A DNA stretch of 64,000 nucleotides from positions 3,179,482 to 3,243,481 of the forward strand of contig NZ_CP127390.1 of assembly GCF_030286045.1 (NCBI RefSeq). The letters are read 5' to 3'. The DNA is from Propionimicrobium sp. PCR01-08-3 (GTDB lineage Bacteria > Actinomycetota > Actinomycetes > Propionibacteriales > Propionibacteriaceae). Position 1 is the stretch's first letter; each line of letters starts with the position of its first letter. The notes under the pieces are model-generated. The model was not told the origin of the DNA and did not search any database. It saw only the letters and a program-made list of their open reading frames with translations. The translations under genes were made by a program, and so were the position numbers. Shown here one piece after another: positions 35,727-58,065 of this stretch.

Positions 35727-35798
35727 TCGTGGCCCTGGGCAGGGTACCCGAGGGTTGTGTTGGTGAATGGTCCTGCAGCCAAGTCCTGAGCCGAACGA

Positions 35799-35933
35799 CC
35801 GGGTTGCCGGGAAGCGAGCCTATCTTTTCTCGACCGGTGCATTCGCGCCTCAGCCCTTCCTTGACCTCGGGAGAACAAGCTCGCTTGTCTCCGCTCGATC
35901 TTCGTCGGGCCCCGGCGAGCGATGGCAACCCGG
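35799..35933. repeat. GGTTGCCGG-family palindromic element with enlarged centre
   Basis: CCGGGTTGCC (35799–35808) and GGCAACCCGG (35924–35933) are perfect inverted arms. Just inside lie GGGAAGCGAGCC and GGCGAGCG, matching the elements at 45666 and 45810. The middle is ~70 nt longer and contains an extra hairpin (GAGAACAAGC…GCTTGTCTC). It lies between lysS and the Mrp leader. Confidence 0.6.
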
Positions 35934-35968
35934 ACGGCCGGCGACCCCGTCAACGCTCGCATGACGGG

Positions 35969-44977: not shown

Positions 44978-45610
44978 ATGGCACGCATTCTCGTCATCGA
45001 CAATTACGACTCGTTCGTCTTCAACGTGGTCAACTACCTGGCCCATATCGGTGCCGAGGTCGATGTCTGGCGCAACGACGATGCGCGCTTCGAGAACCCC
45101 GATTGGGCCGACGATTACGACGGGATTCTGCTTTCGCCCGGGCCCGGCACCCCCGAACAGGCCGGGGTCTGCATCCGCGTGGTGCGCGAGCTGGGCGGCA
45201 AGGTGCCGATCTTCGGCATCTGCCTCGGGCTGCAGTCGATCGGTGTGGCCGAAGGAGCAGTGGTCGGACGAGCCCCCGAGCTGCTGCACGGCAAGACCTC
45301 GCAGATCACCCATGATGGACGCGGGGTCTTCGCAGGTCTGCCGAATCCGCTGACCGCCACCCGCTACCACTCCCTGGCTATCGATCCCGCCACCTTGCCC
45401 GACAGCCTGGAGGTGAGCGCCCGCACCGACTCTGGTGTGATCATGGCGGTGCGACACCGCGAACTGCCGATCGAGGCCGTGCAGTTCCATCCAGAATCGG
45501 TGCTCACCACCGGCGGCTACCAGATGCTCGCCAACTGGCTGGCGGCCTGCGGAGATGCAGACGCTCCCGCCCGCGCCACGGGGCTATCGCCACTGATGAG
45601 CGCCAGTTAG
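44978..45610 (+). CDS. Glutamine amidotransferase (anthranilate/ADC synthase component II)
   Basis: A 210-aa class I glutamine amidotransferase. It has the N-terminal VIDNYDSFVFNVVNYL, the oxyanion segment LSPGPGTPEQAG, the nucleophile in GICLGLQSIG and the catalytic His-Glu in FHPESV. It supplies ammonia for anthranilate (TrpG) or aminodeoxychorismate (PabA). With no partner synthase gene here the two cannot be separated. At this conserved location it is usually called trpG or pabA. GACAAT-N7-ATG supports the start. It is convergent with pknB. Confidence 0.92.
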   Translation: MARILVIDNYDSFVFNVVNYLAHIGAEVDVWRNDDARFENPDWADDYDGILLSPGPGTPEQAGVCIRVVRELGGKVPIFGICLGLQSIGVAEGAVVGRAPELLHGKTSQITHDGRGVFAGLPNPLTATRYHSLAIDPATLPDSLEVSARTDSGVIMAVRHRELPIEAVQFHPESVLTTGGYQMLANWLAACGDADAPARATGLSPLMSAS

Positions 45611-45665: not shown

Positions 45666-45725
45666 GATTTTGGTTGCCGGAAAGCGAGCCTCGTCTTTTC
45701 CCGGCGAGCGTCGGCAACCAAAATC
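45666..45725. repeat. GGTTGCCGG palindromic element, copy 1 (terminator-like)
   Basis: The arms GATTTTGGTTGCCG (45666–45679) and CGGCAACCAAAATC (45712–45725) are perfect at 14 bp. Inside is a GGAAA…TTTTCC hairpin. The core 45671–45720 is the same as copy 2 except for one base. It is placed between convergent trpG/pabA and pknB. Confidence 0.75.
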
Positions 45726-45809
45726 GTCCCGACTATCGGTATCTGCAGTCAGCATGTTGCTGTCACTCCAACACCGAACCGGCTGGGCAGGTCTCAATAC
45801 GCTGAAACA

Positions 45810-45875
45810 GGGGGTTATGGTTGCCGGAAAGCGAGCCTCGTCTTTTCCCGGCGAGCGGCGGCAACCACAACCCCC
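45810..45875. repeat. GGTTGCCGG palindromic element, copy 2 (terminator-like)
   Basis: The arms GGGGGTTATGGTTGCCG (45810–45826) and CGGCAACCACAACCCCC (45859–45875) pair with one mismatch. The core matches copy 1, but the outer stem is a different sequence that still pairs with itself. It is 32 nt from the 3' end of pknB. Confidence 0.75.
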
Positions 45876-45907: not shown

Positions 45908-47902
45908 CTACGGGGTCTTCGAAGAGCTGGGCGAGGACGAAGCGGGCTTCTCCAGCGTGAGCTTGATCGCCGGGTTCTCGCTTCGCCGCAGCACCTTGTC
46001 GACGTCCTGATCCTGGGCGGTGACCTTGGCGTCGTCCTTGCCGTCGGCGGGCGAGAAGGTGACACTGGTGAGGCCGAGCGCTTCGAGTTTCGCGGTGGCT
46101 TCGGCCTTCGTCATCCCGACCAGATTCGGCATCACCGACTCGCCGGAAGCCAGCCACAGCACGATCGGGGAGTCGTTCTCGACGGTGCTGCCGGTGGCGG
46201 GTACCGCGTAGACGACCTGGCCTCGCTGGTAGTCGATGGGCTCGTCGGAGTCCCCGGGCTCCAGGTAGTCGCTGGTCACATTTGTGTATCCGGCGCCCTC
46301 CAACAGCGCCCGGGCGTCCGCGTCCTGCATGCCGATGATGTCTCCCGGCAGCTCGGAGCGTCCGCTCGCAACGTACAGCGTGACCTTTTCGTCGGTCGAG
46401 GCCTCGGTGCCCTCCTCGGGGTCGACCGCGACGACCTCACCCTCCTTCGCCCCGACAGTATCGAGGCTGGCCGGAGCATCCATGGGCTCGACATTGGTGA
46501 ACCCGGCGTCCTTCAGCAGGGCGACGGCCTCGTCCTGCATCGCGCCGACCACCCCGGAGGGAATCGGTGAGACCGGTGGCCCGTCGTTGATGACGATCGT
46601 GACGGTGCTGCCGACGAGTACGGTTTCACCGGCCGCCGGATCCTGGGACACGACGGTGCCCTTGCCCTCGGCGGGCCCGGTTTGGTGCTGGACGTTGGCC
46701 TGCAGCTGGACGGTCTCCAGTTGATCGACGGCCGCGTCCTGCAGCGATCCGGTCACCGTCGGAACCTGAACATCGTTGTTGCCGATCAGACCCGACATAC
46801 GCAACGCGAAGAACCCCAGCACACCCAGCAGCACCACGAGCAGCCCGATCAGCACACCGGTCGCCGGGGAGATGCGCCGCTTCTTCGGCTGCTCGTCGAT
46901 GTCGTCCGCATCCACCACTTCGGACGCAGCAGTCTCGAGCTGAGCCTCGTTATCGTATCCGGCGGGGTCGTACTCGGGATCGAGTTCGACCGGAAGAGCC
47001 CTTGTCGCGCGGGTCTCGCTGACCGCGGCAGCGGAAAGCTGAGCCGTCACAGCCTGTCCGTTGAGCAGCCGCCAGCAATCGTCCCGCATCTGCTTGGCGC
47101 TCTGGTAGCGGTCGTCGGTTCTCTTGGCGAGCGCCTTCATGGTGACGGCGTCCATCTCGGGGGTGATGTCCGGATTCAGCTGGGATGGCGGAATCGGCAT
47201 CTCGCGCACATGCTGGTAGGCCACGCTCACCGGCGAGTCCCCGAGGAAGGGCGGGCGTCCGGTCAACAGCTCATAGAGCAGGCAGCCGGCCGAGTACAGG
47301 TCGGAGCGTGCGTCCACCTGTTCGCCGCGGGCCTGCTCGGGCGACAGATACTGGGCGGTGCCGATCACGGCGGCCGTCTGGGTCATGGTCGCCGAGGTGT
47401 CGGAGACCGCCCGGGCGATACCGAAATCCATCACCTTGATCTGGCCGCTGTTGGTCAGCATCACGTTGGCGGGCTTGATATCGCGGTGCACGATGTCGTG
47501 CTTGTGCGAGTAGCTCAGGGCGTCGAGCACGCCGATCTCATATTCAAAGGAGCGTTGGGCGCTGATCGGTTCGCCTTCGCGCAGCAGTTCGCGCAGTGTG
47601 TGGCCCTCGACCAGCTCCATCACGATATAGGGCACCGAGACCCCGCTGGCCGGATCCAGCTGCTCGTCGGTGTCGTAGACGCTGACGATATTCGGGTGAT
47701 TCAGACCCGCGGCCGACTGTGCCTCACGTTGGAATCGTTTCTGGAAGGTGCTGTCGGTGGCGAGATCGACGCGGAGCCGCTTGATGGCCACCGGACGCCC
47801 GAGCCGCGTGTCATTGGCCCGCCAGACTTCGGCCATGCCGCCCCGCCCGATGATCGTTTCCAGCTGATAGCGGCCGCCAAGGATCACTGGCTCGTCGGTC
47901 AT
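45908..47902 (-). CDS. pknB: Serine/threonine kinase PknB with PASTA domains
   Basis: A 664-aa protein. The kinase domain spans ~12–270 with K41, HRD ending at D141, DFG near D159, activation-loop Thr residues in TMTQTAAVIGT and LSPEQARG. A linker and a membrane segment (~340–362) are followed by four extracellular PASTA repeats, which bind muropeptides or lipid II. The ATG at 47902 has AAGGAAT about 10 nt ahead; the longer frame lacks support. It follows pbpA after 178 bp. It should phosphorylate FhaA, FhaB and cell-wall enzymes, opposed by PstP. Confidence 0.95.
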   Translation of the reverse strand: MTDEPVILGGRYQLETIIGRGGMAEVWRANDTRLGRPVAIKRLRVDLATDSTFQKRFQREAQSAAGLNHPNIVSVYDTDEQLDPASGVSVPYIVMELVEGHTLRELLREGEPISAQRSFEYEIGVLDALSYSHKHDIVHRDIKPANVMLTNSGQIKVMDFGIARAVSDTSATMTQTAAVIGTAQYLSPEQARGEQVDARSDLYSAGCLLYELLTGRPPFLGDSPVSVAYQHVREMPIPPSQLNPDITPEMDAVTMKALAKRTDDRYQSAKQMRDDCWRLLNGQAVTAQLSAAAVSETRATRALPVELDPEYDPAGYDNEAQLETAASEVVDADDIDEQPKKRRISPATGVLIGLLVVLLGVLGFFALRMSGLIGNNDVQVPTVTGSLQDAAVDQLETVQLQANVQHQTGPAEGKGTVVSQDPAAGETVLVGSTVTIVINDGPPVSPIPSGVVGAMQDEAVALLKDAGFTNVEPMDAPASLDTVGAKEGEVVAVDPEEGTEASTDEKVTLYVASGRSELPGDIIGMQDADARALLEGAGYTNVTSDYLEPGDSDEPIDYQRGQVVYAVPATGSTVENDSPIVLWLASGESVMPNLVGMTKAEATAKLEALGLTSVTFSPADGKDDAKVTAQDQDVDKVLRRSENPAIKLTLEKPASSSPSSSKTP

Positions 47903-58007: not shown

Positions 58008-58023
58008 GCGAGCGATAACTAAC

Positions 58024-58065
58024 GGGAGTGTCCCAGGCGTCATGCCCGGGACACTCCCTTTGTTT
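58024..58065 (+). terminator. Terminator of the eda–kdgK operon
   Basis: GGGAGTGTCCC pairs with GGGACACTCCC around a GC-rich inner loop, followed by TTTGTTTG. It begins 17 nt after the kdgK stop. Confidence 0.85.

Follow-up and report, generated by a model that had tools for sequence, protein, structure and literature searches.

REP, REPIN and BIME elements of the GTAG and CGTC classes are short, dispersed extragenic palindromes that are often clustered, and CGTC-class REPs also occur without a dedicated transposase, according to the excerpted text of PMC3733652. MITEs are non-autonomous palindromic sequences whose presence or absence differs by species, and intrinsic (Rho-independent) terminators form strong hairpins just after stop codons, convergent junctions included. 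In quasipalindrome correction, or the formation of template-switch hairpins, whole arm blocks change and stems become perfect in one step; the excerpts of PMC8794818, on RNA stems, and PMC8604942, on yeast inverted repeats, describe template switching as a process that makes and repairs perfect stems.

The palindrome family analysed here, from the chromosome of Propionimicrobium sp. PCR01-08-3, resembles REPs, MITEs and terminator hairpins, and lacks, for each of these, one or more of the defining features that were tested. Like REPs, it is a dispersed extragenic palindrome (34 model matches and one long-loop copy). Unlike them, it comes with no Y1 transposase and no tag seen at the hairpin foot, was seen in just two species, both of one genus, and varies its outer stem from copy to copy while the core stays nearly identical. 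It differs from MITEs in giving no target-site duplication signal, and a search for mobility enzymes, which covered Y1 transposases only, gave no autonomous partner. In contrast to intrinsic terminators, the family has a conserved unpaired loop, is a dispersed repeat and mostly lacks a U-tract. What sets it apart from described quasipalindrome correction is that here the changes are spread over families of multicopy repeats, in which the core stays constant while the stems change. No published description of the family was found among open-licence PMC papers.

The window, meaning the whole stretch of 64,000 nucleotides that was analysed, spans positions 3179482–3243481 of contig 1 in a chromosome of 3,248,514 bases (G000). 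Two hairpins of the family occupy the spacer between a pabA/trpG-type gene and a convergent pknB-type gene (Table 1). The first gene ends 61 nt before the core of copy 1, and the stop codon of the second lies 41 nt after the core of copy 2. The preliminary description had reported two near-identical cores within different, self-complementary outer stems. The cores (45671–45720 and 45818–45867) indeed differ at one of 50 bases. All bases of the copy 1 outer stem, GATTTT/AAAATC, are paired, but that of copy 2 contains an A–C mismatch, and its self-complementarity is to this extent incomplete. Folded as RNA, the two copies on both strands gave four structures, all far beyond those of shuffled sequences (z −3.4 to −3.9).

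Table 1. Positions of the hairpins and their neighbouring genes in the window.
Feature	Position	Strand	Match or remark
Glutamine amidotransferase gene (pabA/trpG type)	44978..45610	+	Pfam GATase 5.5e-57
Copy 1, outer stem, left arm GATTTT	45666..45671	+	
Copy 1, core hairpin (GGTTGCC...GGCAACC)	45672..45719	+	model R1 match C1:3225141-3225212, E 3.7e-13
Copy 1, outer stem, right arm AAAATC	45720..45725	+	
Copy 2, outer stem, left arm GGGGGTTAT	45810..45818	+	
Copy 2, core hairpin	45819..45866	+	model R1 match C1:3225288-3225359, E 4.3e-14
Copy 2, outer stem, right arm ACAACCCCC	45867..45875	+	one A-C mismatch
PASTA Ser/Thr kinase gene (pknB type)	45908..47902	-	Pfam Pkinase 1.8e-50, PASTA 1.2e-31
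Third copy, outer stem, left arm GCCGAACGACCG (second stem type)	35790..35801	+	partner 35931-35942
Third, diverged copy, loop longer by about 80 nt	35802..35930	+	

An alignment of the left arms of the two window copies, anchored at the core and extended outwards, gave AACA-GGGATTTT against AACAGGGGGTTAT, which are not wholly unrelated. For the wider left flanks, local alignment gave no significant similarity (183 of 2000 shuffles). A simple shared ancestry of the two outer stems was therefore set aside, the anchored alignment being suggestive and the shuffles not significant. With up to three mismatches, the arm motif has three matches in the window, against 0.05 expected. The third copy follows a gene that we take, from reading it, to be lysS, and its extra loop sequence contains a small palindrome, ACAAGCTCGCTTGT. 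Elsewhere in the window, an 18-nt inverted repeat at 58021–58061 (89% complementary, with 5 nt between the arms) forms an ordinary terminator-like hairpin, the sequence of which is unrelated to the palindrome family.

A genome search with one core arm, allowing up to three mismatches, returned 27 matches, 24 of them with a partner arm; the other three (L023, L024 and L027), in which no partner arm was seen, were left out. One copy, L010, was kept out of the alignment (A1, 23 rows) owing to its long loop. A covariance model of 23 copies matched 34 places at E≤0.01, which with the long-loop copy brings the family to 35 copies at 28 intergenic places, two copies standing at each of seven places by our reading of the table. 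The tables of 34 copies used below omit the model match at 838536, which was read separately and brings the total to 35. Each copy consists of a conserved core of about 45–54 nt within an outer stem of about 5–14 bp. Inner stems occur in a type with tandem G–A pairs (GCGAGCC/GGCGAGC) and in fully paired types (GCGAGCC/GGCTCGC, GCAAACC/GGTTTGC and GCGAACC/GGTTCGC). Double changes were seen in 17 of 26 stem pairs, in the interior of the core as well as outside it, and the covariation score was 0.291, compared with 0.161 for shuffled alignments (0/500) and at most 0.126 with slid partners. Rfam 15 matched only two tRNAs in the window and gave no match above threshold at the locus. A simple tandem duplication of the element lies a little upstream of the window, where copies L054 and L056 (C1:3174144 and 3174239) are 95 nt apart and have a 41-nt flank in common.

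To assess how the flanks pair, we used the 24 copies that had come from the single-arm search, the pattern of which is blind to pairing. The claim of pairing rests on this set because the model behind the 34-copy set itself rewards paired flanks. Flanks scored 8.4 with their own partner and 3.0 with permuted partners, for which the maximum was 6.1 (0/20,000). Between copies, the flanks diverge rapidly: in eight copy pairs with cores no more than three edits apart, the mean flank distance is 10.1 edits over 24 nt, compared with about 13 for pairs with distant cores and 15.5 for random sequence. Given genome-wide pairing together with fast divergence of the flanks, the pattern of the window is the rule in the family. 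The proposal that pairing is kept while sequence is not thus extends to the genome as a whole, but as a tendency: 15 of the 24 copies score at least 8, whereas six score 4 or less and two of these six score 0, so that complementarity does not hold at every copy. Two loose types of outer stem recur, GGGCGGTTGT/ACAACCGCCC and GCCGGACGGCCT/AGGACGGCAGGC, and flanks paired across copies score 2.98 compared with 1.36 when shuffled. On these grounds, alignment and scoring suggest that the outer stems partly share a common ancestry.

All 35 copies lie past the 3′ end of a gene. On our own codon-usage gene calls, which are not an annotation, the 28 sites divide into 11 convergent, 17 tandem and no divergent junctions; in the small background of window spacers of at least 60 nt, 7 of 34 are divergent. 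The nearest stop codon is 15–271 nt away in the 34 tabulated copies (15–118 nt in 30 of them) and 21 nt away in the 35th, and at tandem sites 15 of 21 copies are closer to the 3′ end than to the following start. The orientation of the hairpin relative to the gene at these sites is random (8 same and 9 opposite, by our count). Pairs of G–T and A–C, looked at for an RNA-level effect, numbered 15 and 19 in the mismatched class at tandem sites.

The position past gene ends, the random orientation and the strong covariation all favour an explanation by selection alone, in which a bidirectional terminator or 3′-end hairpin would acquire compensatory RNA substitutions pair by pair, the core being conserved for other reasons. 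The preliminary description had likewise proposed a selected bidirectional terminator. Its gene-end position and its paired stems agree with the data, but a U-tract (at least five T in the 8 nt after the core) is present in only 1/34 and 4/34 copies on the two strands, and a search for terminator-like sites at the pabA–pknB locus gave none. With U-tracts missing from the majority of copies and no consensus terminator at the locus, the data do not support a standard intrinsic terminator; a terminator that works without a U-tract, or a hairpin that protects 3′ ends, is possible.

Among 147 genomes of the same taxonomic family, its own included, the element was found only in G000 and in the congener G004; G030 gave one marginal model match (E 0.002). 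An exact pattern scan of genome contigs returned 62 stretches, with clear members only in L080 and L117, both from Propionibacterium sp. MAG 3-JJ_aug_S1_071. The remaining 60 stretches and three viral-contig matches were assumed to be chance, and a search of viral contigs with pabA found no relative.

The pabA–pknB spacer measures 297 nt here compared with 5–96 nt in seven of seven congeners, in which neither the core nor the outer stem was found; G002 alone among the seven has a strong hairpin at this junction, of unrelated sequence. For 14 other sites of our genome, 39 orthologous stretches were read (14 in G005, 11 in G004 and 14 in G006; the spacer was unreadable at L151, L163 and L170, and some gene calls elsewhere looked unreliable). 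The element was present in one of the 39, in G004 at L147, and a search of the whole G005 and G006 genomes with the RNA model found it nowhere. At the tandem site L031, the sister spacers are bare and 15–29 nt long in three species, compared with 190 nt here, and at convergent sites the sisters often carry other hairpins of unrelated sequence (e.g. L132, L146 and L139). Beyond a gene that we take, from its translation, to be ffh, G000 (L048) and G004 (L058) each carry a copy, the outer stems of the two being different, and the six other congeners have a spacer of 12–102 nt without the element. The site of the G004 copy L066 was left out of the comparison, since in G000 and G005 some 8 kb separates its flanking genes, and L063, with a spacer that is long in all species, is of little use as an empty site. 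Since the flanking genes of the compared species are only about 70–90% identical, these empty sites are species-level rather than strain-level.

L058 itself resembles an element sitting within the remnants of a second one, with GCGGATG...CATCCGC further out and GTGGTTGCC repeated.

The preliminary description had offered a second explanation, with the core inserting into loops of hairpins that already existed. The unrelated strong hairpins that congeners carry at several of the same convergent junctions would suit such targets, but these hairpins do not share the outer stems of the family. The outer stem is missing in all seven congeners at pabA–pknB, and tandem sites such as L031 have no such stem in their short spacers. 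Wherever the core was missing in congeners, the outer stem was not seen either, an outcome that the preliminary description had itself named as contrary to loop insertion. The absence of both core and stem from the empty sites means that the two arrived together, which contradicts insertion into loops at the level of species; we see hardly any chance that this explanation holds. The orthologous comparisons show that whole hairpins, core plus outer stem, were gained in this lineage.

The size of the element, its extragenic palindromic form, its location at 3′ ends and its paired clustering resemble those of REP and BIME elements. These features would fit an ordinary REP mobilised by a RAYT (a Y1 tyrosine transposase), but a search of G000 for Y1/HUH transposases (PF01797) gave no match, whereas 5 of 14 control genomes matched. 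In the flanks of 34 copies, read by eye, no GTAG or CGTC tag common to the hairpin feet was evident (tags as given in the excerpt of PMC3733652), which may also speak against mobilisation of this kind. Direct flank matches gave no sign of a target-site duplication, the longest being 6.4 within copies compared with 5.5 across copies; the signal did not go beyond stem sequence that copies share and a sole long match, a tandem duplication. An ordinary RAYT-moved REP is very improbable.

In G004, copies of the window's family with similar cores carry five perfect outer stems of 11–14 bp, namely GAAGCGGGTGT, GCGTCCTGCGGTTC, CTTGTGGTGGT, CGGTCAGGTTGGT and GGTTCAAGAGGATG, each with its complement. 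Within an array in this genome, the middle copy, L064, combines the left arm of L062 with the right arm of L060. This chimera is what unequal crossing-over through the core would leave. The five stems could also have been written at insertion, if the core inserted and fold-back synthesis copied the adjacent target as an inverted duplicate. Flanks that diverge far faster than cores in G000, and empty sites without a stem, point the same way. Such an origin is at odds with the loose consensus among outer stems (GGGCGGTTGT or GCCGGACGGCCT type) and with the common ancestry suggested by the cross-paired flank scores. Nor is either arm clear at the empty sites (best 8–11/12), although this uncontrolled comparison is weak given intergenic divergence. 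Writing of the stem at insertion therefore seems improbable to us.

G004 carries a second palindrome family, GGCTACCGA...TCGGTAGCC, with 47 forward and 47 reverse matches. We scored 51 copies from fetched stretches (L188–L235) over a block of 12 pairs that lies outside the search pattern, which covers the inner 22 bases only. The block contained no non-Watson–Crick pair in 23 of the 51 copies, one to three in 3 and four to nine in 25. An independent-site model expects 1.5 perfect blocks and 30.6 with one to three such pairs, and random arm pairing yields 0.8 perfect blocks on average and five at most. The 23 perfect blocks represent 19 different sequences, and many copies are perfect over 31–34 bp. 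In the mismatched copies (24 rather than 25, L226 being left out of the per-block means), mismatches averaged 1.0/12 in the outer block, 6.1/12 in the middle block and 0.3/7 in the inner block. Among 50 arms of the mismatched copies, just 2 are identical to a perfect type and 8 come within one mismatch of one; the mismatched copies are therefore not simply arm swaps between perfect ones.

A third family, GCGCCCGATATATCGGGCGC, is common to G005 and G007 (L171–L186 and L236–L242) and has the compensated subtypes GCTG/CAGC, GTTG/CAAC and GATG/CATC. At one site that the two genomes have in common (3 kb at 96.6% identity), the stem in G005 is perfect, GAAGATG/CATCTTC, and in G007 the left arm alone is changed, by two bases, to GAGGTTG, a subtype that occurs elsewhere in G007. 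Apparently one arm has been replaced here, and the other has not yet been, or never will be, matched to it. In a further genome, G006 (L156, L158 and L165), recurrent inverted repeats of the CTTTCGACAGGCTCA type were observed at gene ends; they are probably another palindrome family, belonging to that species.

These families bear on selection alone from both sides. Only 2 of the 44 classified copies of the second G004 family are divergent, which favours it (a usable gene was missing on one side in 7 of the 51 G004 rows and in 1 of the 19 G005/G007 rows). In the G005/G007 family, however, long perfect stems also stand at divergent sites (6 of 18 rows, three distinct sites by our reading). The near absence of intermediates with one to three mismatches in the second G004 family, and nearly perfect stems of 31–34 bp that exceed what a terminator requires, argue against it too, as does the scarcity of U-tracts in G000. 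Because the stems of the second G004 family are perfect or heterologous in whole blocks, selection alone looks insufficient; we regard it as the chief rival of the reading that we prefer, and as unlikely.

The reading that we prefer, with about even confidence, is that the family is a lineage-restricted, dispersed palindromic repeat (REP/MITE-like), whose arms are re-matched by template switching and which is kept at gene ends. The element would spread as a whole hairpin, core plus outer stem. Copies would then recombine through the core, and an arm could be replaced alone, both of which are seen in related genomes. Mutation, core recombination or one-arm conversion may make the two arms diverge, and template switching during replication would copy one arm onto the other, giving a perfect but new stem. 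At gene ends, the hairpins may be kept because they help to end or protect transcripts, or may be tolerated only there. Arm-to-arm copying and recombination through the core probably keep the stems matched, and selection at gene ends is likely. The strongest block-wise support comes from the families of the sister species, not from the G000 copies, whose outer stems are often imperfect. We infer that arm copying acts in the window's own family, and likewise any role of the hairpins in ending transcription; RNA selection could add to, or replace, arm copying there.

A related and rather doubtful possibility concerns the gene-end palindromes of the genus, several species of which each have their own family: the core would be a seed, and fold-back copying of DNA, during insertion or later, would rewrite the arms. 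If so, such a family would propagate by sequence in its core and by shape only in its stem, and the perfect covariation would therefore stem from a DNA mechanism rather than from RNA selection.

Covariation is usually taken to prove that RNA is under selection. With its three palindrome families, this genus provides a natural multi-copy test of whether DNA template switching writes matched arms, and the split between perfect and heterologous blocks in G004, together with the one-arm change between sister genomes, makes that test direct. If arm copying is true, compensatory changes in dispersed hairpins would not, on their own, be evidence of a functional RNA.
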